From Halichondria panicea (Eukaryota; Porifera; Demospongiae; Suberitida; Halichondriidae), in NCBI RefSeq assembly GCF_963675165.1, contig NC_087382.1, positions 6,434,315 through 6,498,314 on the forward strand: 64,000 bases of DNA, in the 5' to 3' direction. A program made the translations under genes and the position numbers. The notes under the pieces are model-generated. The model did no database searches, had not been told where the DNA came from, and was given only the letters and a program-made list of their open reading frames with translations. This document shows positions 9,301 to 63,700 of this stretch, piece after piece; within the stretch, counting starts at the first letter, position 1; the number at the start of each line of letters is the position of its first letter.

Positions 9301-9605
9301 TTTGACAATGGTAATTAATTATTATTATTTAGTTCTGTCTTACATTGGGAGGGAACCTGGGTATCCATGGTTGCTGTAACTGATACTACTTTGAAACTCA
9401 TTCCAATTGAATTATCTGGTATCATGGCATCTGGGTGGCATATAGATCATCAAAGGATTGAGAATGCTTACAATCTGAAAGGAGTTTCGTTGGATAGCCC
9501 CCTCATCAAAACGTTTTGCATACTCAGCATTGTTACATGTTCGTTTTAACATTACACCACAACCTCCTCACATGTTCTTTTATCTACCCCCTGCACATCT
9601 TCATA

Positions 9606-9656
<51 letters not shown>

Positions 9657-12600
9657 ACAGCTGATCAGTGGGGAGTGGGTGGGTGCCTTGGCAATGAGTG
9701 AGCACTCGTCTGGCTCTGACGTAGTCTCCATGAAACTGAGGGCAGAGAAGGACGGCGATGGCTACTTACTAAATGGCAGCAAGTTCTGGATCACCAACGG
9801 GCCTGAGTCCGATTTAGTTATTGTGTATGCCAAGACAGAACCTGAAGCCAATGAGAAGGGTATCACTGCTTTCCTTGTGGAGAAGGTTCATTCTAATGTA
9901 CACTAGCTGGCCTGGGGGGGGGGGGGGGGGAGAAGTGCACACGTTCTTTTCTCCTTTTGGTTAAATTTAGATTCCCTAAAGCCATACTGGGTTCAATTAT
10001 CATTGTTCGGATTGCCTAAATGCTTGAGTGTAAGGGTGCAATTATCGACATTTCTTGTCGTCACGTTTCTTTTGAATGTGCACATACACGGATTAGTTTA
10101 AAAGTTCAAAGTGTTGATTGTAATTTTTCGGCTAAACTTGACCACGTAATTCTTCTACTGCATGGTTGGGTTGCTACGCTCGTGTAGTTGTAATTATATT
10201 TCATAAGGAAGACTTTGCAATTTTCATACATGTACATGAAAACCCTGATGTTAACGAAGTCTTTCCTTGAAATGAATACATGTAAGTACTGTACACTGTC
10301 ACAAATCAATAAGACGTATATACGTTGTGTAAACACTGCACGGTGTCGCACAAGTAGTCTGCCTCTCGTGCGTTGCAAAACAGTGTAATGCGATATATTA
10401 AGGAGTGAAAACAAGACCGTCTTCGGTGACAGAAATTGTACATGCATTTTAAGCAATTTTTCCAGGTGTCCTATTAATCGCTGTGATACGAAATGTAATA
10501 CTGTACGTATTTCAATCTGCCATTGAAGTAAATATCTTAGCAACACGATGAAATCACTTTGAAGTGCAGGTGTTCACAATAATATTGATCCAACTAGTAC
10601 GAGTGGTAGAGAATAAATTGCTTTGATGAGCCAATTTTCCCGTAACTAGAGTGCCAAAATATACCATATATTTTTTACTAATAATCATTTTGGTGTTTTG
10701 ATATTGCTATGACAACCCTCACAGGCGTGGGAAGGGTTCACAACGGGCCCGAAACTGGACAAGTTGGGCATGAGGGGTTCCAGCACCAGCGAGCTGATCT
10801 TCGACAATGTTCGGGTACCAGGTTCGTAGAGAGGAATGTGTAGTAGCAGTGTACGTGTACATACATGACTGTACGGTATAATGTACGGCAGAAATTTGAC
10901 TATGTGTGAAGTAATCAGCCAGCTGATACGATGATACGCCATATTACTGTCAGTGAGAAGAATAATTCTGAGAATCGAAATACAGTATTCGGTCACTGCC
11001 CACATATATAAATAATTATGTACATATCAAGTGATTATAGACAGACACATGTGTGGTTGCATGCATTCTCTTTCTGTAGACAACATGCATGTACATGTAC
11101 GTAAAGTATCAAGCAAATTTTTTAATGGCTTAATGGCTTAATTGGAAATCTATTTGGTGTTTTCTTGTTGTAGCAGTTTGGAAATTACACGATTCGTATA
11201 ATACGTAATCTCCGCTCAACACTATTAAGTAATTATAGAGTTGTTGCATGCATCCTCTTTCTGTAGATAACATGGATGTACGTAAGGTATCGAGCAATTT
11301 TTTTATGGCTTAATGGCTTAATTGGAAATTAATTGGTGTTTTCAGTATCTCAAAAACAAAATTTGTCTTAATTACACGAATCATGTAATATTTGCAATCT
11401 CCGTTCAACACGCCCATACCCACACGAAGCGTGCGTAACCCATAACACTGCCTCCCTGTTTGTCGCCTAGCAACATTGGATTAATCACTTGTACTAGTTG
11501 CCAAATGTGTAACTAGCTTCTTGACACAACGTGTAGTAACGGGTATGTATTTGTCATTGTGGCTTGATGCTAGTTGCAGTGACGTGTACAATAGTAGTCT
11601 AAGAATGTAATGTACTTGCTCCCACAGACTCAGCTTCAGTTACAAGTAATGCCTAGCTACCTACCAACTTTCTACCCACTCAGTAATGACCTCAATAATT
11701 ATATCTAATAATACGGTAGCAATACGGGCGTGCCATCTGTCAACTCAGTATTAGTACAAATGAACGTTTTCAGTGAATGAAGCCTCAATAGAGAGAGCCG
11801 TGTAAAACACACTGCAGGAAACACCTCTTACAAACAACAATGCTTCCACCCACAGTTTATACAAATAATAGGTTTATGAGGGACAATGATGACATGAGTT
11901 TAACTCCCACAGTGTCCTTTATTTGAAGCCCACATAGGACCGGGTATTAAGTATTATGTGCATGACTGTACATTTAGACCAATCTTGAAAAATGTGTCAA
12001 CATCCTAAATGAAACACATGCACCCACTTACTACACATACACCCCAGCTAAGAACGTACTTGGTGAGGTGAACAGAGGAGTGTACGTGCTCATGAGTGGG
12101 TTGGACTTTGAGAGGCTGATTCTAGCGGCTGGCCCCGTGGGGATCATGCAGGCGTGTGTGGACACTGCATTCCCTTACCTTCATCAGAGGGAACAGTTCG
12201 GCGAAAAAATTGGACACTTTCAGGTAAGTGGTTTTCGGGGGTATAGGTACATGTAACTTACATCCACATATATGTGTTGGACTCTGTAATGATCGATGTA
12301 CACTGTACATGTTAAACCTTTGTTGACCTTTATGTAGTGGTTAATTTGCACACAACTATTTTGCATGCTTAAAAATATTTAGGTATTTGTAAATTAATTC
12401 TTGAAGAGTTAATTCTTACACTCTGCGTAGTGGCACCTGGAATGAGATTGCATGACCCAAACATCTGGTGTTTATTGTTCTTGTGTCATTATTATAGGGA
12501 GTAGTCCGTTAACAATTACGTAAAATGTGGGTCGGTATATGTGTGGAAACAATCGTGCCTCCTCTGTTTTGTTTGCTACAAGTCGATCCCATAATTGTAA

Positions 12601-15600: not shown

Positions 15601-17982
15601 TACAAGATGATACCATACATGTACAATATTTGTACTAATAAGCTGCTATACCGCCAAAGCACGTCTCAGCCCATCCTGCGTATACTGTTGTTATGGTCAA
15701 GCAACAGGGTGTTTACAGTTGCTATAGCCCTACGTAGAAGTCTTCAACGGATATACATGTACGTTCGTAGACAATCTATTGAAACGATAAAGTTTAAAAT
15801 TAACTGCTCCCCAAAACAAGTCTTACATAACTGTCTCATGGTCAAGCAATGAGGGTGGGGTGTTTACAGTCACTTCCCTTAAAGTAAGGGATTTAATAGT
15901 TATCTGTAGACAATATGAAACTGTAACACCGTAACTCCAAGGACCATCCTAAGTCTCTTTGCCTCTTATAATAAGTATTACGTATAGTATTGTCTGAGGT
16001 AAGTGTGTCTATATGTTCTGAATACTGTGGCAGTAGGATTTGGGGACTTTTTAAGATCATTTGTAGTGAAGAACAAGGATACACAAATGGGTCTCTAATT
16101 CAACCCTGCCAATTTCCTTTCATCACAACAAAATTCAAAGTACAACAATTGTCTCAAACCTAGATCATGTGTACTGTAATGTTTGTCATACGTACGTACT
16201 CATGTCTATATATAGTGTGTACATTTTCTTGCATCCTCATCCCCCTTCTAATTAACAACCTTTGGGTGTGCCTGACAATTGTCTGCCGTACCGTCTAATT
16301 ATGATGATTGACTGATTTAGGAGAATGATGTTTGAGCTATATGTAACGTGTTGTGCTTGCTATACGTGTGATTGTTGTGTCTATAATTTCGGGCTGATGT
16401 GATTTTTAATTTATGAAGGGAAACAATCGTAGACAGATTTATCTACTGCATATAAACACTGTAAGTGCATGGCAGTGCCTCTGTATTTGTGTGTTATGAA
16501 ACATTCACTTAGTTCAGGTACAAACATGTTGCCAATCGCTCTTGCACAGTCTTTACAGTATATTCATGACTCCATCTACATGTACGTAGTAGTACATATA
16601 TGGTACATGTAATTATTTTACAATAGAACCTCCGTTTATCCGGAACCTCCATTATCTATCTGGCTTGGCGATTTTCTCCAGAAAAGGGGCGTGTCCCTTA
16701 AATGCGCATGCGCATTGCAGCTGTTACCATGGAGACATGTCTGCTTATCTTTTGCACATGCGCAGACAACCATGTGACACTGCTGTTTATGGGTGGATAA
16801 AGGCGTAGTTTATTTATTCGATTATCCGTCATGTTCAGTTATGCGGCCTGCCTCTGGAATGTTGTCCAGATAATCGAGGTTCTACTGTTAATGTATATTC
16901 CTGAATTTGCTTTTGTCTGCTTCTAGGAGGAGGCTCATTTTGATTGTGCAAGGTATATGTATGTAAAGTACCAATTACTCTGTTGGCAGTAGATACTAGC
17001 TGTGTACGTTCAGATTGTTATTATGTTTTTGTTGGCATGTCGGCAGTTTTCTTTCATTCTTGCTGAACACGTGTTGCAAAACATGAAAACATGCGTAGGC
17101 ACCCAGAGATCTTGTTACCTCTTCTGTTTGCTTCAATTAATTATTCATAATTGTTCTCCCTGACAACTAGTGATAGTGCATATACTGTTAACCTGACAAG
17201 CTTGTTTGGCAGCCACACATGTTTGGTGTGTAATCAATCGCTGGCAGATGCACATTTTATTGCTAATCCGCGGTACTTAGTACATGTAGAATTGCTCGAG
17301 ATAACTGACGTCTAAAACGAACTGCTCGTAGTCACAGTAATATCATTTTAGCAGACGATATGTTACACCGGTATAGTGTATAATTAAGGTACATTCATCT
17401 ACATTCATCTCCACAACAGTACGGTATTGTGTTCTGATACTGGCTATAACTTCTTCTTTTAGACATTCCAATTCGAGATTGTTATAATTTGAATGTTGTA
17501 GTTATAACCAATACCCAGATTGAATGTGCTAGAGTTAATATTGTTGACAGACTGATTTCTGAACAACCTAGCTGAGCTAGTACCATTCTGTGATGATAGA
17601 AACATGACGAGGAGGTACATTGTTTTCCTCTCTTGGTTCTTTTGTCTGTGTGTGTGTGTGTGTGTGGAAATCCAGTTCGTGGGTTTCTAACAGGTCATAC
17701 ATGTATATGCACGTGTGATCTTGTAACTAAGTTATTTGTCCTGTTAGTGGTATAAGGACTGGCACTAATTAGCATACAGTGAGTCAGGCCTTCTGGGTTG
17801 TTTGAGGTACTTGCGTGAGTTCTTTATCCACACTTACCAATGCAGGGGGGAACGGATACATAAACGAATACCCCACGGGAAGGTTCCTAAGAGACGCTAA
17901 GCTCTACGAGATTGGTGCAGGTACGAGTGAGATTAGAAGGATTGTGCTCGGGAGAGCATTCAACAAGATGTTTAAACACTAG
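6385..17982 (+). CDS. IVD: isovaleryl-CoA dehydrogenase, mitochondrial (complete, 9 exons)
   Basis: FAD enzyme of leucine catabolism in the mitochondrial matrix. It oxidises isovaleryl-CoA to 3-methylcrotonyl-CoA and passes electrons to ETF. Exons: 6385-6528, 6641-6782, 7054-7223, 9661-9885, 10725-10821, 12048-12223, 14206-14323, 14572-14634, 17846-17982. Every junction is GT-AG and phase-consistent, giving 423 aa, the length of the human enzyme. Residues 1-30 are rich in Arg and Ser with no acidic residue (a mitochondrial presequence). Then come the acyl-CoA dehydrogenase N domain ([20 protein letters not shown]), the FAD-binding middle block ([27 protein letters not shown]), [13 protein letters not shown] with the Glu in the helix position used as catalytic base by IVD, and the C-terminal [16 protein letters not shown] and [12 protein letters not shown] blocks. 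The IVD-type Glu position separates it from medium/short-chain paralogues. Start chosen at the ATG opening the presequence. Likely poly(A) signal at 18124. Confidence 0.95.
7565..7855 (+). repeat. imperfect tandem repeat in IVD intron 3
   Basis: About five diverged units of 50-65 bp built around 'tttttgggcatcgtgat', 'cttacctatcagtcagtg' and a short AT spacer. The best-matched units lie at 7700-7855. Confidence 0.7.
8156..8442. mobile_element. pogo/Tigger-like non-autonomous DNA transposon
   Basis: A 287-bp element with TIRs: left 'acagtacaaccttgattatc', right the inverse ending 'ggttctactgta'. TA-flanked ends and the 'GAACCTCGATTATCCGG' signature are typical of pogo/Tigger-derived MITEs. Internal blocks (TGCGCATGCGCA, ACGCGCCCATTTTCTG) are shared with 16619-16890. 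Confidence 0.75.
8999..9201. repeat. 203-bp TIR element, TACCGTATAGCGGG family
   Basis: Left end TACCGTATAGCGGGTAATTT, right end its inverse (AAAATTACTCGCTATACGGTA). Both arms carry 'CGTGGGGTAAAA' or its complement. A left-end fragment lies at 61187. TA-type ends. Confidence 0.75.
9606..9656 (+). repeat. (CA)n microsatellite abutting the IVD exon 4 acceptor
   Basis: About 25 CA units run almost directly into the CACAG acceptor of IVD exon 4, leaving no ordinary T-rich tract. Length changes here would alter a splice site. Confidence 0.9.
11050..11412 (+). repeat. diverged tandem duplication, about 170-bp unit, in IVD intron 5
   Basis: About 11050-11222 and about 11240-11412 match block by block: 'tctttctgtaga', 'atggcttaatggcttaattg', 'ggtgttttc', 'aattacacga' and 'aatctccg(c/t)tcaaca' occur in the same order. 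Confidence 0.75.
12622..12855. repeat. TIR MITE, TACCTTAAGGTGACAT family, copy 1
   Basis: Left end TACCTTAAGGTGACATATTT, right end the inverse (TGTTACCTTAAGGTA). AT-rich body with 'cgattttaccctcattcgca'. Lies in IVD intron 6. Confidence 0.8.
13020..13224. repeat. TIR MITE, TACCTTAAGGTGACAT family, copy 2
   Basis: Same ends as copy 1 and a similar body in the opposite orientation, 165 bp away in the same IVD intron. Right end 'aatgtcaccttaaggta'. Confidence 0.8.
13930..14122 (+). repeat. local duplication upstream of IVD exon 7
   Basis: 'gcacaatgtgcttattgatc...cacatctccacta' at 13930-14035 recurs in slightly altered form at 14052-14122, within 90 bp of the exon 7 acceptor. Confidence 0.6.
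16619..16890. mobile_element. pogo/Tigger-like MITE, copy 2, in IVD intron 8
   Basis: 272 bp. TIR left 'acaatagaacctccgtttat', right 'taatcgaggttctactgtta'. Shares the GCGCATGCGCATTGCAG-type internal block with 8156-8442, with the two body halves in inverse relation. Confidence 0.75.
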
Positions 17983-18786
17983 CTGAATTAAATGTTTTTA
18001 ATTGTGTAATTGTGTCCAAAAAGTTTACAGCTTTAGGACAGTGATTGTGTAATTTTGTAACCCACACTTTATAATTTGTTCGTGGTGATGCTAATAATTA
18101 TTTGCAAGATATTTAGTGTATTTAATAAATAATATTGTGCGTACTTTACCTATCCCATTATCATGCATGTGATGCTGGTGTTAAATTAATAGGCTATAAT
18201 TATAGGCCTCCAAATATTTATTTATTTCCCGTGCAAAATTAAATTAAATAGTAGACGTTTGTTCTTTAGTCAAAAATTCCTAGACTGTATTGGACCCAGC
18301 GCATACACTCTGTATGCAAACAAGGAAAGCAACTTAAGCCACAAAAATTTAAAATTTTCCGGTTTTAGATTTCTATACTGTATACAGCTGATAAACACGG
18401 TATTGTGTAATACACGCATACATAATTACTTTGTAACCTGTGTATCAAAGTAATATGATAGATAGCATCTCTTAAATTCTATATTCAGTTGAGTGTAAAC
18501 CCTACCCCTCTGCGAAATCCAGGAATGGGAAGAATTGCTGTGATCTTAAATCAAGTTATGACAGATTATTCGTTTTACTGCATGCCAACGTCTGTACACA
18601 CTAATTTATTTGTTAACAACACATGATTGGCATATCATGTGTCTCCTGGGGAGAGGAATCAAATAACTGTTGTGGTCACAGCTTTGCTATAAATTTAGCC
18701 AGAATGCCAGTAATAGTCACTCGATTCAAGATCTTCATTCATCTCAAGGCAAAAAGTATACCAATATACATCCACTCGTTGCAAGT
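17983..18786. other. intergenic region: IVD 3' UTR and upstream region of the cystine-knot gene
   Basis: AATAAA at 18124-18129, 142 bp past the IVD stop, is a plausible poly(A) signal. The rest is AT-rich without recognisable repeats. The reading frame stays open upstream of the ATG at 18787 back to 18670, but that stretch looks like 5' UTR. Confidence 0.5.
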
Positions 18787-20505
18787 ATGAAGAGAACTCA
18801 TTCTTCGCATATCATCGCTGCTGTATTATTTGCAAGTACGTTTGACATGCAGTGTAATAAAATTATAGATTGCAGTCATTGCATGGATGCATGCCTAGCT
18901 TCTATTATTCAACAACTAACTATAGGATATACTTTGAACAGTCTATTCACTCTATTTTCTTACATAGCTATCTCCAGCGTATATGTTGAGACGAAGTTCT
19001 GTGAAGTAGCGTGCACTAGAGTTTCGGAATTGAAAAACGTTGGCTTTGGTGAGTTCCAATTTCTTGTTTTGCATTATTGTGTGTTGCATTATTGACAAGC
19101 TGTTGCTCATGGTTTGTAGTAATGATTTTGTCTCTATGTGGTTGCCATTATTGATATAGTTTTTGACATTAATGTTGGTTTTGAATACTGTTTGCAGACA
19201 ATTCCAAGGTACCGATGTTTATAGACAAAGGAAAATGTCAATCGAACTATACAGTAGAAGAAGGCTGTGAGATACCTCCTGCACAAGATTGCGACCGTGT
19301 ATGCCAACCTCGTGCACTCGAGATACAGCGATACCACAACAGAGACGGACCACAGATAGAAATAGCAATCAAATCTTGCTACAGACCAAACCATAGTTGT
19401 CTCAATAAGTGTGAGCTGAAACGGTCCTTTGTGCACTTGTTCTCTGGATCAAAATATCACCAGCGAGTTGATGTGGGGAGATGTGTTGGACCTTGTCAGG
19501 AGACAGGTTAGTAATTAATTGCTTGTACGTATGCCATAATAGCTAGCTATAATGACTGTGTCACTCGAAACTGTGCAGAGTGACATCCCATTATATCAAT
19601 TTTTCCACTGCAGATCCTCGGATACAGTGTGTATCAACAAGAAATGTCACTGAAGCATTTGAAGGACCAAATGGTACGTATGTTTACTGGTGTACAGTCT
19701 GTCATCATGTTTAAATCTTAACTTGTACAATCTCTTACCAAGATAGTGAACGAATGCGCGACATGCATAATAACAATTATCATTCTTGCAGGCTTTGTAA
19801 CACTAGACATTGTCAAAGAGTGTTCTTGTGGCAACACTAACTGCTATCGAAGCGACTACTTTGAGTCATACACGACAAACAACGCAAGTAATCCAGAAAA
19901 GGTTTGTTTAGATGCTAGAGAAATGAAAACACCCTGCCATGCAATATCAGCCATGCACTTTGTCTTCTGTCAGACCTGCATGTTTCGTTGGTGATTAAAA
20001 CTTTTTTGTGAATTAAACATCATAATTATAATTCACACGTACAGGTGTTGAATGTGGGACGATGTGTTGGATCTTGTCCTGGAATTACTTTGCCGGCCCA
20101 ATGCTTTCCGTGAGTTTGCATACCATAATAGTCTTTTGTTCAAACAGTTACCACCTCTACCTAGCCTCGATTTCAGGCCCCCTGAGAAACTTTTTTCCCT
20201 TCCCTGCGGCCTGGAATTGAGGCTTGTGTCTTGGCTATTAGGTTTTATACCATGCATGCATTTACGTGCATGTGAGAATGTTTTTATGGGCAGTCAATTT
20301 CCTTTGCAATATGTTTTTTCACCAGAGACATGTGTAAATAACTCGTTTCTATTCATGCAGGGACCCTGACAATTGTGTCTGGGAACTTCAGCCAAGACCA
20401 TCCCACTGTGTGTCTACTAGTAGTACAAAGGAGGTGTTTACTGATGCGAAGGGTATACAAATAAAAGTTCCTCTTATCAAAACTTGCGGCTGTGGTTCAG
20501 GATAG
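18787..20505 (+). CDS. secreted protein with tandem cystine-knot modules (complete, 7 exons)
   Basis: Exons 18787-18835, 18968-19048, 19198-19506, 19614-19673, 19792-19901, 20045-20109 and 20361-20505 join in phase to 272 aa. Residues about 1-24 form a signal peptide (HIIAAVLFATISSVY). Two modules follow the six-cysteine knot spacing C...C-x-G-x-C...C...C-x-C. Module 2 has VDVGRCVGPC, CVSTRNVTEAF and KECSCGNTNC. Module 3 has VLNVGRCVGSC, HCVSTSSTKEVF and KTCGCG. An N-terminal module (KGKC, CQPRALEI, IAIKSC) looks like a degenerate third copy lacking C-x-G-x-C. Such knots occur in bursicon, glycoprotein hormones, gremlin-type antagonists and TGF-beta-like ligands. The tandem arrangement in one chain is unusual and I recognise no orthologue. 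The knot assignment rests on cysteine spacing, and a ligand or antagonist role is inference. A hairpin MITE sits in the last intron. Confidence 0.8.
20162..20225. repeat. hairpin MITE in the last intron of the cystine-knot gene
   Basis: TAGCCTCGATTTCAGGCC at the left and GGCCTGGAATTGAGGCT at the right, 64 bp. Same family as 5099-5179. Confidence 0.75.
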
Positions 20506-43979: not shown

Positions 43980-46900
43980 AAATATTCGGGTTAGTACGGT
44001 ATCTGAATTGGGATGCATCTAGCTCAAGGCCGTCACAACCCACTAGAAGCCTGACTCTGAAGTTTGAGGGGGAGCGGTTCATCAGACAGCAAGACCACAG
44101 CAGCGAGGTAGGTGGGGGGAGGGATGAGATTGGGAGATTTGAGCATGAGTCTGTTATATTGATGTATTGGGTTACGAGCATACTTGAAGGACTCTTTCAT
44201 TTTCCCGTTAGAGATCATGGACGAAAGTGACGGATAGCAATTAACGAGTTGTGACAAGTGTGGACCAAGTTTTTTGTAGGCCAGAGGGGGAGTCATTGAG
44301 TAGCCTTTCCAACATAACCCTCTTTGGGAGATCTTCAGATGTCATGCAGGCCATCGAGTTTATGAAGCAGAGCTGTCTACCGCAAAGAGATCCCCAATGA
44401 GCCTATAAGACTAGTGAGGGCGAGCGAGGGGCATCTGGTTGGGAGACCCTGAATTGTGCGTTTCTATGAGTTCTCTCCAACATGTTGAGGTCACTTTTGG
44501 TCAGGGACCAAAGCTCTGACCCATAGAGCATAATTGGAAGGCAGAGTGTGGAGTACAGCTTGTGGGATGTGATGGGATGGAGACAGCCGAACCTTGCACC
44601 CACCGAGTTAAGGGCGAAGAAAGCACTTCTACCAGCAGAACAGCGTCCAGAGATTCTGAGTGAGCCAGAGGTGGACACTAACCGTGTGATGCCCAGGTGT
44701 CTATCTATCAACCTCTTGGACAGTTTCTGAGCAAACAGAGAAGGAACGTAATTGTCGACCAGTGGAACGGGATCTAGATGTTTCTCCAAATACCATGACT
44801 GCAGACTTCGAGGAGTTGATTTCGTAGCGTCAAGCACCCGCATAATTATTGTGAGAAGATATCTAGAAGCTTCTGCAGGCTTTCTGAAGAGCCAGCAATG
44901 AGAGCGAGGTTGTCAGCGTACATTGGGGAGGGACAGTGGACGGAACCAGCCATAATTATAGCGCCAAGACCGCATTAATGTAGTTGGGCAAGCAGATCAT
45001 CTACAAACACCGAGTAGAGAAGCGGGGAGAGGATCGCACCTTGGCGTACTCCTTGGGAGACTGGGAAGGTTCTTGAGCGAGAACCATTGAGAAGAAAGCA
45101 GCGAGAGTACCAGTGAACCAGGATGTGCCAGATTCTGGGGTGGATATATATACCCTTTTGGTGAAGTTTGACAAATAGGCCTTCGTGCCATACCGTGTCG
45201 AAGGCCTTTTTAACGTACAGAAAGGCCCACGAAAGCCTTTTTTCCGCTATCTCGGAGAGACTGGACTGCTTCTTGGAATGTAAGGCTGTATGGATTGTGC
45301 TGTAGCCTGGACGGAAGCCTCCTTGGAGAGGGCTGAGAGAAATGCCATGGGACAGTATCTTCTCCAGAATTAGTTTCTCAAATAGTTTTCCAACATTGGA
45401 CAGGAGTGAAATACCTCTGTAATTCGAGGGGTTCTTAAGGTCTTTATCTGCACCTTTTGGGATAGCGTAAGCAGCTCAGAGATGTGACAGGAATTAAGCA
45501 AGCATGGCGTTAAAGATCCTCCTCAACTGGAGCTGCACTGTTGGGCCAAAGAAGGATAAGTGTTCCGTCTCAATGCCATCAGGACCTGGGGCTTTCTCAC
45601 GTTTGAGAGAATTGATAGCATTAGCAATGTCGGATTGGGTGAGAATGACATCTCCACCCTGGGTGGATTCTAGAAGGTCTGTTATTCACACTTTGCAGGT
45701 TGTCAGATCAGAGTCAAATAGTGTGCTATGACTGGGGGTGCTAAGTGATTTGAAGTAGTTAGCCCAGCCCTCTAAGAGGGTGTCACCTATGGGAGATTGT
45801 TAAATACAATGGTGCTAGTGGGAGCTGACTTGGAGGGGGCGTAAAAACGTTTGATTTTTCTGAAATGGCACTTCTTGACTGCTTTGAGGGGATTTGACTG
45901 GGCCAGCGGTTTACCGGCAAAGGTGAAACGCTGATTTCGACTCTGAATGGGCAGATTTAAGGACGATAGACCATCCTGGGATAATATGTTTTTTGTATTT
46001 CTTCAAGGGAAGTCCCTTTAGCGCTGTCTTGTACATTAGGCATACCAGACTACGGATAGAGGTATCAATTTGAGAGGTGCATCCACGTGTAGGCGGGAGT
46101 GATCAAGTACTGACAGATATCTCTAGAGGAGCCGTATATCTCTCTTCTATTTCAGAACTAGATAATTTTGACCAATTTACCCGGGCAGCAGAGTTGTGGC
46201 TGGCCATGAGAGGAGGTGCTACATGTATCAAGGGTGACTTGGATGTTAGCCGAGATTGGGAGATGGTTAGAGGTGTTCATGGGACATTCATCTAGAACTT
46301 TTGCAGAGGTGAAAACATCTAGGAAGCGGAAGTGACAGAGAATATGGTCAATGGTCGATTGGCTGTTGTGAGCCTCACTGACATATGTGTGGTAATGAGA
46401 TGAGGAACGAAGGTACAGGTGTACAGAGGTGTAATTCCACCTTGTAAGGTACTGACAAAGAATCCTGCCCAGTTCGTTTGGTTCTCCAAAAATGCCAGGG
46501 TCTGCGTTGATGTCACCCAGTATGATAACTTCGCTTTCAAAGCCTAGCAAGTTAATCAAAGTCAATGTAGTCAAGGCACTCTCTAAATTGTCGGTGCAGC
46601 CCGATCTTGAGGGGAGATAGACTCCTAGAAAGCAGACTGGGGAGGGAAGGGTTCTTAATTGCAACCCGACAACACGGTGAGAGAGTGATGTGTCTAGTTT
46701 CCGTTCTGAAGTGATTTCCTGAAGAAAACGGCCACACCACGTACCGCCCTGGCCTCTTAAGAAGCTAGATCGGCACAAGACTGGGTCCTCTGTGAGTGGG
46801 GGTGGACGAAGAGAAGCACAAGAAGTTGTCTGATAAGGAGGAGAGATGAAGCCAGTGTTCAGAAATTGCGAATAGATCGTGTGACATAAGTAGTGTACGC

Positions 46901-48064
46901 AGATAATCTATAATTATTTGATTTTCGTCTCTAATATTTAGGCAGCCGAAATTTAGAATTGAGGTAACTTGATTACTTGGAGTGGAGTGCGTATTGTGGG
47001 GTTGGTTTAGTCTACCCCCTCCAGCTCCGCGTTGAGGGGAGCAGGGGAGACGGATGGATCTCTGACCTCTAAAAAAGGATTATTGGAAGGTGTTATCTTG
47101 GAGGGTGTTAGTATTAGTCATAGGTCTGTTATCTGAAGTCACAGGGGTATCACTCTGGGAGGGGGCTCAGTGGAAGAAGCGCGGCCTGCAGAATCGATCT
47201 GAGTGGGGGGATTTCCTAAAGGGGGCCCCAGATCAGAGAGCTTGGAGAGAAGTCTCCAGTGTGGTGGGCAGGAGAGGGAATCACATTTCTCATCAATTAG
47301 AGAGAGAGACTCCTGTGGCGCCAGTATGGTGAGCCACCATTTCCTTTTCCATGCACTATTCATTTTGACGCTCTTCTTTATAGTGACCGACAGTCCAGCA
47401 TCAGCGGGGAGTAGAGAGAGCACTGTGTTTTCGACAAAGTCAGTCGGGCATGAGAACTTTAATTGTTCCCCATATAATCCTGAAGGGAGAGGGACGTCTT
47501 AACTGTGAATAAACTCTAATTGTTGCCTAACACCAGCACTAGTACTGGGGGGCTTGACGGAGCGAGGCAGCTGATTCTTGGGGGCAACGATCTTTTTTAA
47601 GGCTGAGAGTTCCTGTACAAGCCTATTTATTAGATTCCTCCAACGAAGTGACATATATTGGAAATCTTGATTGAGAGCTTATCTATTGCTGATATGAGCA
47701 ATGATATTTGAGCATTGATATTGATAGAAGGGGTGTCGGGAGAGCAGACATGGCAGCAGAGGTAGCATCTGCCTCAGAGAGACCAATACATTGAGAGTGG
47801 GACCATTTCAGACAGACATCGCACTCCACCATTAGATTCCCGTCATCTTCAGTGGAGCCACATGCAGCTGCAGTTTATCATCTGCTGTTGATCGAGTTTC
47901 AAGAGAAGGTGGGTCTGAAGAAGGGGTCTTCTCTTAGGTTTTCCTTTGGTACGTGTTCCCGCAGAGGGTTAATTTGGCCTGTTTGGCCTTAACAGTCGTC
48001 CCACCTTGGGGTTGGGGTTGAGAGATGGATGTGTTTCGATTGGATTTCCTTGTTCTAGATTCCA
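43980..48064 (-). mobile_element. degenerate CR1/L2-like LINE retrotransposon (ORF1 PHD, endonuclease, reverse transcriptase)
   Basis: Read on the minus strand. An ATG at 48064 opens a basic ORF1 start (MESRTRKSNRNTS). At about 47770-47870 a PHD-type zinc finger reads ACGSTEDDGN...CDVCLKWSHSQCIGL. An APE-type endonuclease lies at about 46160-46950 (VIILGDINADPG, STIDHIL, SNHLPIS). The reverse transcriptase at about 44400-45300 has palm motif A (KKAFDTVWHEGL), then QGVRQGAILSPLLYSVFVDDL with the catalytic DD, and the C-terminal ILRTIQGLPTRCPSLAL block. Frameshifts and stops break ORF1 and ORF2 into several frames, so it is inactive. The domain order APE-RT and PHD-bearing ORF1 point to the CR1/L2/jockey group. 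Ends are approximate and no target-site duplication was identified. Confidence 0.88.
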
Positions 48065-48534
48065 TGACAATCGCAACAAGCGCGTGTAATAACGACGAGC
48101 CAACAAATTAATAATAACAAATTGAACGATTTATTTGACCGATCCCGACAAAGCAGTACCAAAAACAATGCCAACCGCCGAACGGTATCTCAGCCGAATC
48201 ACGAATATCCCACAAATCACTGGGTCATGTGATAACATCCAGCTAGCATGCACTTGTAGTATAATTCATGCACACATACATGTCGGACCTCCTTTGCCCA
48301 TGAATGGTTAAAACTGTCTCTGATATTTTTACCAAAGGAAGTTGTATGCTTGCATTGTGTTGACAGAGATACAGACCAAGATACTGCACCACAGTTTGTG
48401 TAATTGGCGAAAATTACTAGCATGACCATACAGGAAACAGCTTTGGAATACCTATATACAACTGCTTCAATCTCTCTTCTATCCTAGAATAGGTTTACTA
48501 TACTGCATCTAGCTCATCAACTATAACACAAGCA

Positions 48535-49101
48535 ATGGCTGCAGCTTACAAGAACAGTCCTAAGTGGGTAAAGCGAATGGAGGAATTCTTTGTGCAGTCA
48601 GACCTCAACAAAGACGGCTACTTGTCTATCCAGGATTTCGATATGTGGAGTGATAATCTTGAAAGAGAAGTGAAAGCTGAACCAGCCCTTCTGAAGAAAG
48701 CACGAAACGCTACTCGAGATTTTTGGGAAAGTACTGGCCTAAAGCAAGGTGTGCTGCTTTCTAAAGAGCAGTTTGTCGAGAAGGTAGCAGAAGTAGCAGT
48801 TGCTGAAAAAACTAACTTTGATGAAGGGAAGGAGTCTCTCTTCTTTGCTATGATGGAGACTGTGTTTGATGCGGTTGACACTAATCGTGACGGCTTCCTA
48901 CAGATGAGCGAGTACGCGACAATGAATAAGGCAGGCAACTTCGATGATGGCACTGCTAAGATCCTGTTTGATATCATTGACAAAAACCATGATGGAAAGC
49001 TCTCTAGGAAGGAGTTACTGGAATACAACATCAAGTTCTGGTTCGCTCCTGATGATCCTGAAGCCGCTGGCTTGTACGGGGCCAAGTTTGAACAAAACTA
49101 A
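48535..49101 (+). CDS. photoprotein-like EF-hand calcium-binding protein, paralogue 1 (intronless)
   Basis: 188 aa in one exon. Three canonical EF loops: [12 protein letters not shown] (residues about 23-34), DTNRDGFLQMSE (about 115-126) and [12 protein letters not shown] (about 149-160). The second EF-hand position is degenerate, the EF1/EF3/EF4 pattern of aequorin-type photoproteins and sarcoplasmic calcium-binding proteins. The opening [13 protein letters not shown] and the end [16 protein letters not shown] resemble aequorin's NPKWIGRHKHMF and FWYTMDPACEKLYGG. The His before that FW block in aequorin is Asn here, and there is no C-terminal Pro, both needed for coelenterazine light emission, so calcium binding or buffering is likelier than luminescence. 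About 25 substitutions and one indel separate it from the copy at 60454; the 17 bases before the ATG are nearly identical. Confidence 0.9.
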   Translation: MAAAYKNSPKWVKRMEEFFVQSDLNKDGYLSIQDFDMWSDNLEREVKAEPALLKKARNATRDFWESTGLKQGVLLSKEQFVEKVAEVAVAEKTNFDEGKESLFFAMMETVFDAVDTNRDGFLQMSEYATMNKAGNFDDGTAKILFDIIDKNHDGKLSRKELLEYNIKFWFAPDDPEAAGLYGAKFEQN

Positions 49102-57700: not shown

Positions 57701-60700
57701 ACTGTTAAATTCATTGGCTCTTAGTGTTCCTCGACAAGAAAAGATACTGGTGAACCCTACCATCAACCCAGCAAACGCTATAGAAACTGGTAGTGAAAAA
57801 ACTGAACAGCCATAGCTAATTATCATGCAGCTACAGCTTTATTATCATTTCTGTACATTCAAAAATAGTACTTGTACTTTATACCCTCAAGCTTATAATT
57901 CCCTGGGAAACTATGAGATTATGGCTCATAATTCCCTGCTAAACACACACAAGTGGGATCTAAAATTATTGGAGAGAGAAAGTTGCGAGTATTCTAGCTA
58001 GCAGCTTCCCTTCTGGCCACAGTAATACCTCATAATATGCATGTACACATACAATTAAGTGTTTGTTAATGATATTTATAATCACGTACAGGGTTTCGAC
58101 GGCAGGAGAGGGGCATGCAACTCAGCATCTACCCGACGTACTCATCGAAATTCAAATGATATATTCATGGAGTATCGGATATGGTATAAATAGATTAGCC
58201 TCCTTCGCAGCCTCTCCTTTTCCTGTTCTTTGTCATAGTTTAATAAGATAAAATATGGGACTAATTGGAGGAACAAAGAAAGAAAGAAAGAAGGAAGAGA
58301 CAAAGAAAAAGGAGAGCCTGCCTTGCTAAGTCACGTGACGGTAGACAAGTGAAAATGAACGTGGGCAATCACTAGCTGGGCGGAGCCTGACAGAGCAAAA
58401 AGCTACAGCATGCCTACGCATTGCAAACTCTAACATAAAAGCTGTTAGCATCATAGATAGTAAGCCAAAATCAAGCGTGGAGACATCGTAGACGAGGGCT
58501 TACCTAGTAAAGACTAAAGACTAAAGATCTAGATCTATATCTAAATTTGTTCCTAGTTCAGAACAGACCCACTTGACTAGTAGATATAATTATTACAGCA
58601 GTATAGTTTACTCTACTCTAGTCTTTCATACTTCATCTACTGACTAAAGGTCTCACGAAGGCTGACTCTACTGTACTGTACTGTTCATAACAGATTATGT
58701 TCCTGGTAAATGCGCTCCAAGTACTGTGTGGGAGGACAGTTATTGAGGTTTTCTCTCGCCCACACTCGTTAAAATTTGTCTACGTCAGTAGGGGATCACC
58801 CGACTTAGCAAGGCAGGCTCTCCTTCTTTTTTGTCGCTTCCTTCTTTCTTCCTCCAATTTTCTCTTCTGTGACAAAGAACAGAAAGGAGGCTATAAATTA
58901 CGAAGGAGGCTATAAATAGATAAGAGTCAGAGAAGGTACGACATAGGTTGACCTTTTGTTAATCGGTCGCTAATGAGTTACTCCCGTATTGCATTCCTGC
59001 GGCATGACAAGTGTCCACGCCCACATCTTTTTGTGTTGACTCAGCAGGTATTTTATGCACTGTCAGCGCTATTTTACTGTTCTTTGTCTTCTGGAGTTTC
59101 TCCAAGAGGCATCAATCTTAGTATCATTAGGAATCTACTGTAAGTGTTACATTAAGACAGGAGCCATAGAAAGCGCAACAAATGTTTATACTGTAAGTTT
59201 ATAGCTCATTTCTTCAACTATGAATATGCTATTCATTTTTTTATGTCACAGGATATAGCTAGGCATTATTTATAACTACTGTGGAGTACTGCGATAGTTG
59301 GTAGTCTTTTAGCTAGCTACGAAAGTAAGTTTTGGTGTTGTGCTTAACCCCGTCGCGAACAGACATGCCCAACTCTCCTCTGTGTTCAGAAAACACAAGA
59401 ATTCAGAATCGCATAACATGAACAATTCATAATAGCATAATTGGCGATTTCTCAATAATTATTGTCTCTCTAGCTCTGTACAGCATTTTGGCTATCTGAT
59501 CGAGGGTCGAAGTCAATCACGTAGGCGATGTTGCTCTAAAAATAGACATCTATAAATATCATTTGAATTTCGATGATATCGAGTTGCATGCCTTCTTTTC
59601 TACATAAACGCCCTTGGTTTCATCTATAATTAAAAGTTGGGCACGCATAAGCACACCACCAAATTTGTTAACCACACTCTGCTAGTGCATCACAGTAGAT
59701 CTAGTTACATAATTATTGTATATTACAGACAGTACTAATGTGATGATGTCATTATCCTCCAACTTTGGGGGGAAAGCTGAACATTTTGAGGGGGAAGTTT
59801 CATCCCTGCCCCCCTCCCACACTAGATGAAACCCTGACTTATGATATGTTAATCCGTGTATTTGGATGGGGTCTGGTCCCGCTTTATTTGGATTAGCGAG
59901 ATTCTACTGTATATGCGAAGTTTGCGAGTGCTAATGGTATACATCGCAAACACCTATAAGGCACTTGTACACATGACATCACAATCACTACAAGCTCGCA
60001 AAATCATGGATCAGCATGCAGATGCACTTGATAAAAGATATAGTTATATAGCATGCTGTTCCTTTGATTTTAAGTGACAAATGCAATTGTTGCAAGATCA
60101 AAGAAACCACAATGTAACATTATACATTAGTGAAGCATTGGAGTGCAGTCAGCAACCACAACATCAGTGACAAATTATTAATGCAATTGTTGCAAGATCA
60201 AAGAACCATAATGTAACATTATACATTAGTGAAGCATTGGAGTAGCGCACTGCCGTCAGCAACATAACAAATCAGTTGATCGCATGATCGCTCCATAATA
60301 ATCATTACAGCATAGAATATTAATTCGCTACATATAGAGCCGTACAGGAAGTGAGCCTTATCCTCAGAAAACCTGTGTTAGCCTTAACTTGTCACTGTAG
60401 AGAATATAGTTATCAGCAAGGTTTGCTCAACTGTATCAACTACAACACAAGCAATGGCTGCAGCTTACAAGAACAGTCCCAAGTGGGTAAAGCGAATGGA
60501 AGAATTATTTGGGCAGTCAGACTTCAACAAAGACGGCTACTTGTCTATCCAGGATTTCGATATGTGGAGTGACAATCTTGAAAAAGAAGTGAAAGCTGAA
60601 CCAGCCCTTCTGAAGAAAGTACGAAAAACGACTCAAGATTTTTGGGAAACAGTAGGCCTAAAGCAAGGTGTGCTGCTTTCTAGAGAGAAGTTTGTCGAGA

Positions 60701-63700
60701 ATATGGCAGAAGTAGCAGTCACTGAAAAAGCTAGCTTTGATGAAGGGAAGGAGTCTTCTCTTTTTTTCATTATGATGGAGACTGTGTTTGATGCAATCGA
60801 CACTAATCGTGACGGCTACCTACAAATGAGCGAGTACGCGGCAATGAATAAGGCAAGCAACTTCGATGATGGCACTGCTAAGATCCTGTTCGATATCATC
60901 GACAAGAACCATGATGGAAAGCTTTCTAGGAAAGAGTTAATGGAATACAACATCAAGTTCTGGTTCACTCCTGATGATCCTGAAGCCGCTGGCTTGTTCG
61001 GGGCCAAGTTTGAACAAAACTAACGAGCTACGGTCAAGAAATACAGTACATGTATTTTTTTAGAACCAAGCAGTCATATATCATGTCTATTGGTCAGTGT
61101 AGGAGAACTTATCTTAGAAAATTATGTAGTGCAAGTACAAATAAATGTATCGCAATATTACATGTACGCTTCATAAATTCTATTACCGTATAGCGGGAAA
61201 GTTTCGTGGGGTAAAAAATTAGAGAAGCAAACCCAACCAAATTTACTACCAAGTTGCCAACTTTTCTTATTTCCCCATAACTGAGCATGTACCGGGGCCT
61301 AGGCTAAGGGAGTGACAAGACTAGACTAACAGAAGTAATACGAAGTAAGCATTGAGCACTATAAATTCATTTTGGCATGTCACAACTGTCAATAGCATCC
61401 GCCTTCCTATTCACTACATGTAAACCCCAACACATGCGTATATACACTGCATGGCATGATTACGGAGAATTGTGGATTCTAACCCGAGGCTTACCCTGGT
61501 GCTGCCTTGTGAGCTGCTTCCACTGCTTCTCGAATATCCTTCCTGTTCCCCTCAGAGACTTGACCAATCACATCACCAGATTGTCCAATAACAGGGCGGC
61601 AATATGTAGCATCTGGTCGTTTTTGAGCACCTCCAATGTACATCTTCACAGTGTGGTCAATGCTGAGAGGAATAATCATGTACCATTCCGTTGAGACAGT
61701 GTACTAAAAATTCACTATGACTAAATAGTCTATTCATGGCTTGAAACACACAGAAATTGCACCTCAGATAATTATTTCGTAAAGTTTTTTTCCAGGGAAC
61801 GACCCCTGAATTAAACGTTCCCCCTCCCAGCTAAAAATCCTGTATGAAATCTTGTGTGATATAATGTTATGAAAGGAAATCAAAAAGCATTGCAACAACC
61901 TTCTGGAAAGTGTGGTGTGGGTGAACACAAGCAGTCTGGTCTGAGGCATGCATGCTACACCATGAAGTACTGTAACTCACACAGTAATTATGTTTTATGC
62001 ATGCATGTACATGTACAACTGTACATGTACCTTGGAGCTTGTGCTCCATCTATCTCCATGGTAGTGGGGTAGATTTGGAGTTGGTTTTGAGCAGGGTTCA
62101 AAGGTCTAGGTGCGACATTAGCCCCAAAGTCTTTCAGTTTGTCCTGGTCAACTACTGGGCGTGGTCTTTCCATCCAGGATGGCTTCACATACTCCATCAA
62201 ACCCTGGGAGGCACAATTGATTGTTACGAGATTCGTCTCATAATCAGAATACACTGTAGCTACATGACATGTACATACAGACTGTAAACAGGAATCAGTG
62301 GATCATGACTGCGATAATTCACTTTTTTGTACACACATAATAATTATTTGTACATGATACATGTAGGTGCATGTACTGTGTGCAGATGGCTACACTGTAC
62401 ACTAGGAGGACACATAAAATTTAATCACACATTCTACTGCAAATGAGGCGTGGTGAATGTGCATGTACACATAATTCAATCATGCATGCACAGGACACAA
62501 CACATTTACACATACATGTACACCTGTACACGAAACAATTATAAGCCCAGCATACACACACCAGTGCAAATGGGTGCTCTGCGTGTGCCACACAACTAAC
62601 CTCCTTTCCCCCGTCTCTCCCATAGCCACTCTCCCTGTACCCTCCGAACCCGGCTGCAGCGTCAAACTGATTGTGACAGTTAATCCAGCACGCTCCCGCC
62701 TTAAGACTGATGGCCACCTCCAAACCCAGAGAGACGTTCTCCGTCCAGACACTGGCTCCCAGACCAAAAACAGTGTTGTTGGCCAATGCTATGGCCTCTT
62801 TGGCCGTGCGAAAGGTAAGCACAGTCAGCACAGGACCGAAGATCTGCACACAGTGAGGGGTTGGTGAATATAGAATAGCATGAGCGGAGCATGTGCACGA
62901 AAATAAACAGGCCCTAGCTCTTCTCAGGGGCCTGGAATCGACGCTATATGCACATCGATCAAGTGCATGTAGCAACCAAAGACATGCACATTACGTAAAT
63001 TAACATACAGTTGCAAATACATATACAACTCATGTACAGATAACCACCATTCCTACCTCCTCCTGTACGCAGATAGAGACGGGCTGAACCTTGGTGATGA
63101 GGGTGGGTGGATAGAAGTTTCCCCCAGTTGGCATGCATGCACACGCCTGGTACACATCTGCACCCTCGGCCTTCGCTTGCTGGACGTATTTGTCAATGGA
63201 CTTGAGTTGACTTGGGTCCACGATCGGACCCATGTCTATGCTCTGTGTGTGAGTGTGTGTGGGGGAGGGGGGGGTTGAAGTTACACATAATAATTACGGT
63301 GCAATTGATTAATTAGTACTGGAGCCTTATCCAATGGAGTGAGGGAATAGCCTCCCACACCACTGAAAACTTTACATGTACACCTACAGCAACCTAGATA
63401 ATAACACACCATCGTCTTGTACATGTATGTATTCGACTTGACAGTATGTAGTAAAGAACCTTACATGTACCTTGTCTAGAGAGTCCCCCAACCGCAGTTT
63501 GGCCATCCTGTTCTTGATCTTGCTCACTAGTCGGTCAGCAATGTTCTCCTGCACTATCAGTCGACTGCCAGCACTGCACACCTGAATACAGGGAAGTGCT
63601 TTAAATGAGTTACCGTGATTTGGCAGGGTTGGTGACTACTAGAGTTCACAAGTTCACATGATGTTCTCTAGACAGATCGATTGTAAAGTACAAACATAAT

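Follow-up and report, generated by a model that had tools for sequence, protein, structure and literature searches.

The window studied here, by which we mean the whole 64-kb stretch of DNA that was analysed, contains at 18787-20505 on the plus strand a gene of seven exons and six GT-AG introns, encoding a protein of 272 amino acids with 22 cysteine residues. Two parts of the protein, named modules 2 and 3, carry six cysteine residues each at comparable positions (C1 to C6). The ATG lies at 18787 and the stop codon at 20503-20505. Exon 1 (18787-18835) holds the start codon and a basic/hydrophobic leader, and exon 2 (18968-19048) the remaining leader together with the first cysteine pair, C28/C32. 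Exon 3 (19198-19506) encodes the N-terminal cysteine-rich stretch from C57 to C111 and then C1-C3 of module 2 (C115, C139 and C143), followed in exon 4 (19614-19673) by C4 of the same module (C152) and its CVST strand. Exon 5 (19792-19901) brings C5xC6 of module 2 (C177/C179), a linker of four residues and C1 of module 3 (C184). The CxGxC of module 3 (C210/C214) is found in exon 6 (20045-20109), and its C4 (C241), the predicted finger-2 hairpin, C5xC6 (C267/C269) and the stop codon are in exon 7 (20361-20505). All seven exons lie on the plus strand.

A gene at 18787-20505 had been claimed in an earlier sequence-only reading of this DNA, and the exon chain, the open frame and the GT-AG splice sites bear it out, with the correction that its seven exons give six junctions and not the seven that were announced. 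The spliced exons had no in-frame internal stop codon, against 12 and 18 stops in the other two frames; GC content was 0.436 in the exons versus 0.364 in the introns, and the splice sites of the six introns were consensus-like. A TATAAA sequence is present at 18688, upstream of the ATG, and between the last in-frame stop, before 18667, and position 18787 no earlier in-frame ATG was found. Splicing of intron 1 (18836-18967) is the least secure part of the gene model, because its 132 bases are in frame and free of stops; if retained, this intron would add 44 residues, including four cysteine residues, close to the leader. Judged by these sequence features, it is credible that the exon chain is one gene. 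The hydrophobic leader suggests that the protein is secreted, and the four N-glycosylation sequons, at residues 60, 108, 157 and 197, fit an extracellular protein.

Elsewhere in the window, exons of an acyl-CoA dehydrogenase were identified at 9550-9903 and 17806-17982 (plus strand) by matches to Acyl-CoA_dh_M and Acyl-CoA_dh_1, and their frame stops at 17982, about 800 bases upstream of the gene described above. Remains of a non-LTR-type retrotransposon lie on the minus strand at 44978-45475 and 46161-46907, with a reverse transcriptase match, an endonuclease match slightly below the cut-off and a locally raised GC skew. Two single-frame EF-hand proteins are encoded about 12 kb apart at 48493-49098 and 60388-61020 (plus strand); the two genes are very similar by eye and apparently form a duplicated pair. 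Rfam gave no match within the 64-kb window. In the host genome, a peptidase C1 homologue (L054) was also noted, in which CGSSW, with serine replacing the usual cysteine, stands in place of the CGSCW of its near relatives (14 of the 77 genome matches to peptidase C1 were examined).

Modules 2 and 3 resemble each other beyond their cysteine residues. Their alignment scored 79, compared with a maximum of 65 for 1000 cysteine-fixed shuffles of module 3, and the score was reached by none of 1000 full and none of 1000 cysteine-fixed shuffles. The signature runs VDVGRCVGPC, CVST, EAF and KECSCG in module 2 and LNVGRCVGSC, CVST, EVF and KTCGCG in module 3, so the repeated signatures on which the earlier reading was founded are both present and are not due to chance. 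Both modules, without overlapping, have the C..CxGxC..C..CxC spacing of growth-factor cystine knots: module 2 (residues 115-179) reads C115-x23-C139-V-G-P-C143-x8-C152-x24-C177-S-C179, and module 3 (residues 184-269) reads C184-x25-C210-V-G-S-C214-x26-C241-x25-C267-G-C269, with an additional cysteine pair at C223/C230. When residues 25-272 were shuffled 100,000 times, one match to the knot pattern was obtained in 1530 shuffles and two matches in none, for a pattern that was set after the protein had been inspected and whose first match starts at C104, module 2 C1 being taken as C115. The six-cysteine spacing claimed for two modules is thus matched. C6 of module 2 and C1 of module 3 are separated by four residues, and the C3-C4 gap of module 2 has only 8. 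The introns inside the modules fall after residues 146.3, 166.3, 203.0 and 224.7, and since their positions and phases are unlike in the two modules, the duplication is no recent exon copy.

A degenerate third module had also been proposed ahead of these two, and here the pairwise and spacing tests failed. The score of the N-terminal region (C28-C111) against module 2 was attained by 93 of 1000 full and 142 of 1000 cysteine-fixed shuffles, and that against module 3 by 202 and 229 of 1000 respectively; its cysteine spacing recurred in 12,015 of 200,000 random cysteine placements. The sole contrary result was the score on the CTCK profile, 11.3 bits, which was reached by 2/500 and 1/500 shuffles and was the top of 12 module-profile scores. 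The alignment behind it covers 33 columns and does not include CxGxC. The TGF-beta profiles, three in number, gave the region scores that 194 to 309 of 500 shuffles equalled, and one profile of four (CTCK) favours an N-terminal module. Given the short aligned piece and the absent CxGxC, nothing is built on the CTCK score. The shuffle and spacing results thus support two modules and do not establish a third.

Folds were predicted from single-exon pieces, each without an alignment. In the exon 7 piece (mean pLDDT 67.8), two strands, residues 242-252 and 258-268, form a predicted hairpin between C241 and C267; pLDDT averaged by block was 81 and 80 across residues 246-265 and 56-61 towards either end. 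In module 3 this predicted hairpin would stand where the second finger of a knot belongs. The exon 3 piece gave hairpins between C79 and C104 and between C115 and C139, which are suggestive only because 98 of its 102 residues were below pLDDT 50. A Foldseek search with the lone exon 7 hairpin had 0 of 234 matches at E≤0.001.

The protein was compared with known families and with its own genome. A profile check against the CTCK, bursicon, noggin and TGF-beta families, which the sequence-only reading had suggested, matched no Pfam family. In Pfam scans at E≤10, where HMMER filters remove most matches above about E 0.1, modules 2 and 3 had no match at all, weak unrelated matches were all that the full-length protein and its N-terminal region gave, and PF00019 (TGF-beta) was not matched. 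Nor did the protein match PF00007 and PF03045 (Cys_knot and DAN) in the Pfam scans, and no noggin, NGF, PDGF, Spaetzle or IL-17 profile was among the results for the whole Pfam library. NCBIfam returned a single weak unrelated match, and neither the sequence nor the profile of the two modules had a match in the PDB. The host genome comprises 131 Mb in 39 contigs, and an exon-by-exon search of it, by which diverged paralogues would be missed, revealed no second copy of the gene. The only weak protein match elsewhere in the genome (C9:3158372, E 0.34) does not have the knot pattern and was discarded. The pattern GTNGGNMGNTGYGTNGGN had 19 matches in the host genome versus 18 for the reversed control, two of the 19 being inside the gene; of the 17 outside it, five were read by eye and none continued into a knot module. 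No relatives were found among the viral and prokaryote contigs scanned. The statement that the protein has no recognised orthologue therefore stands across Pfam, NCBIfam, the PDB, the host genome and these contigs, and holds for those searched only. Tandem growth-factor-type modules outside any recognised family are in turn backed by the spacing, the duplication, one hairpin prediction and the absent family matches.

Ordinary knot families are present in the host genome. The TGF_beta profile had 13 matches, all above the cut-off. Three Cys_knot matches above the cut-off were CTCK-type, and the same three passed the DAN cut-off, two more DAN matches staying below it; the Cys_knot/DAN matches sit on contigs C9, C10 and C11, and none is at the gene described here. 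In the sample of 11 of the 13 TGF-beta knots, from which two partial ones were left out, the fourth knot cysteine is part of a CC pair in every case, and one member of this pair is the interchain cysteine. The residue before C4 is Q151 in module 2 (QC) and H240 in module 3 (HC), and CC is thus found in neither. C1 to C6 lie in one frame in 10 of the 11 host TGF-beta knots, L031 lacking the first five model positions; L031 and the two partial matches may be split by introns. The three host CTCK knots are in one frame as far as the model reaches, and their genes carry extra cysteines that are missing from module 2. On contig C11, three near-alike CTCK-type knot genes (L021-L023) lie within about 51 kb (C11:607415-658258), and a Ser/Thr/Pro-rich stretch precedes each knot. 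By eye, we take the three host CTCK genes to be of the sponge cystine-knot hormone kind described in PMC4079206.

We built profiles of the host TGF-beta knots (11 sequences), of these plus six PDB ligands, of the PDB ligands alone and of CTCK knots, the last being small (8 sequences, 5 of them without finger 1). With hhalign, the module 2+3 profile matched the host TGF-beta profile with a score of 32.7 and a probability of 82 over 21 columns. This local match was reached by none of 100 and none of 200 column shuffles, whether the cysteines or both cysteines and glycines were kept fixed, and the score of the global alignment by 0/100 cysteine-fixed and 1/100 Cys+Gly-fixed shuffles. The resemblance is limited to 15-21 columns round CxGxC. 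Taken singly, module 3 had a probability of 74 and module 2 of 7 against the host profile. With the six PDB ligands added the probability was 33 (reached by 0/200 cysteine-fixed and 3/200 Cys+Gly-fixed shuffles), and with the PDB ligands alone it was 3.7, compared with 8.5 for a reversed host profile used as control. The CTCK profile gave a probability of 4.7 with modules 2+3, and its scores were reached by 2/100 and 3/100 shuffles locally and by 3/100 and 3/100 globally.

The single-module HMM scores were judged in the same way. On the host TGF-beta profile, modules 2 and 3 were equalled by 4/500 and 0/500 cysteine-fixed shuffles and by 67/500 and 9/500 Cys+Gly-fixed shuffles respectively. 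The corresponding counts on the host+PDB profile were 12/500 and 2/500 (cysteine-fixed) and 102/500 and 32/500 (Cys+Gly-fixed), and those on the PDB-only profile 117/500 and 298/500 and then 338/500 and 461/500. On the CTCK profile, module 3 scored 7.3 bits, which 12/500 cysteine-fixed shuffles reached, and Cys+Gly-fixed shuffles equalled module 2 in 191/500 and module 3 in 35/500. The profile comparisons therefore suggest a lean towards TGF-beta, not membership.

Taken together, we favour, with a probability of about 0.55, an orphan secreted single chain of an early-branching animal, probably a sponge, made up of an N-terminal cysteine-rich region and two growth-factor-type cystine-knot modules, serving as a ligand or an antagonist. 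The gene anatomy, the spacing and the duplication are seen directly at the locus; the knot fold and its disulfide pairing we infer. Points from the sequence and from structure prediction that would speak for tandem knots are the open frame, the double spacing match, the duplication, the hairpins, the match to the host profile and the even cysteine count. We counted against them the lack of a library family, the short TGF-beta match, the weak HMM scores of single modules, the 8-residue C3-C4 segment of module 2 and the uneven splitting of the modules by introns while host knots are mostly in one frame. One knot module would have arisen from the other by an old internal duplication. The 22 cysteine residues, an even count, could all find partners in the same chain, 2 x 6 of them in the knots and 10 elsewhere, and since there is also no extra cysteine beside C4, a monomeric chain is most likely. 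The two knots of the chain would sit side by side, four residues apart. The chain may bind an extracellular partner of knot-ligand pathways; it could be an antagonist that traps a ligand or blocks a receptor, or else a signalling dimer whose halves are already joined. That it acts in TGF-beta-type signalling, as antagonist rather than agonist, is doubtful and is put forward as a proposal only. It is decidedly improbable that the protein is a TGF-beta-derived single-chain two-knot tandem without interchain cysteine, wrist helix and prodomain, that is, a pseudo-dimer or antagonist that was an early-animal innovation beside ordinary TGF-beta ligands.

Cysteine-rich repeats are common among secreted proteins, and the product might belong to the extracellular matrix, to defence or to some other class of secreted proteins rich in cysteine; its modules would then be no growth-factor knots, and their spacing would be convergent. 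The absence of any library profile at the cut-off and the empty Foldseek result for the hairpin agree with this explanation. We regard it as somewhat unlikely in view of the spacing test, in which no shuffle held two matches, and of the hairpins predicted for C4-C5 of module 3 and, with very low confidence, for C1-C2 of module 2. A narrower form of the favoured reading is an unlikely one, in which the protein is a divergent TGF-beta offshoot and a Lefty-like monomeric antagonist of TGF-beta signalling that lacks a prodomain, a wrist helix and an interchain cysteine. It would account for hhalign scores to the host TGF-beta knots above most controls, for QC and HC in place of the CC of all 11 host knots and for the 8 residues between C3 and C4 of module 2, which leave no room for a wrist helix; an engineered TGF-beta monomer, moreover, is a dominant negative by a title cited in PMC11845725. 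However, the region of similarity is short, there is little or no similarity to the PDB ligands, the single-module scores are weak and Pfam TGF_beta was not matched.

We consider it very unlikely that the modules form a tandem of the CTCK, bursicon or glycoprotein-hormone type that would act on an LGR-type receptor as an already linked heterodimer, in the manner of the single-gene honeybee bursicon. Two-knot bursicon (PMC3510462) would be a precedent, cystine-knot hormones and LGRs are reported from sponges (PMC4079206), and the CTCK scores of module 3 and the N-terminal region were reached by few cysteine-fixed shuffles (12/500 and 2/500), but the module 2+3 profile is nearer to TGF-beta, 191/500 and 35/500 Cys+Gly-fixed shuffles equalled modules 2 and 3 on the CTCK profile and module 2 is without the extra cysteines found in the CTCK genes of the host. 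It is extremely improbable that this is not one gene but a pseudogene or a set of exons joined in error: the gene model comes from the DNA sequence, and retention of intron 1 would keep the frame open, but six GT-AG junctions, an open frame and repeated modules that cross the junctions argue for a single gene.

Knot ligands signal as dimers, TGF-beta ligands have a wrist helix between C3 and C4, and Lefty, without the interchain cysteine, blocks signalling as a monomer. If the favoured reading is true, a two-knot chain without a spare cysteine would reveal the way in which knot-ligand dimers were assembled or inhibited in early animals. The protein is like the TGF-beta superfamily (PF00019) in its C2xGxC3, its C5xC6 near the C-terminus and its local profile similarity to host members, and its finger 2 opens with C4-V-x-T, which is CVPT in some TGF-beta members. 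Unlike them, it has two modules per chain, no CC at C4, a very short C3-C4 in module 2 and no Pfam match; no prodomain was seen, and module 2 is preceded by the leader and an 87-residue cysteine-rich stretch that had no Pfam match above the cut-off. An engineered monomer of TGF-beta was employed in PMC11845725, and the title of its source paper describes it as dominant negative. With CTCK proteins and cystine-knot hormones (bursicon, gremlin, norrin and sponge CKH) the protein shares the six-cysteine knot spacing and, probably, secretion, whereas module 2 does not have the host CTCK extra cysteines and the two-module profile is less similar to CTCK than to TGF-beta. According to a 2014 paper (PMC4079206), cystine-knot hormones occur in three sponges, and sponges possess both such hormones and LGRs. 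Our literature search found no paper on tandem or double cystine knots under such wordings. The sequence-only reading had held that known ligands usually have one knot per chain, a rule to which honeybee bursicon, with two knots in one chain according to PMC3510462, is a known exception. The present protein likewise has two modules of knot spacing in one chain, but the knots of honeybee bursicon correspond to two known subunits.
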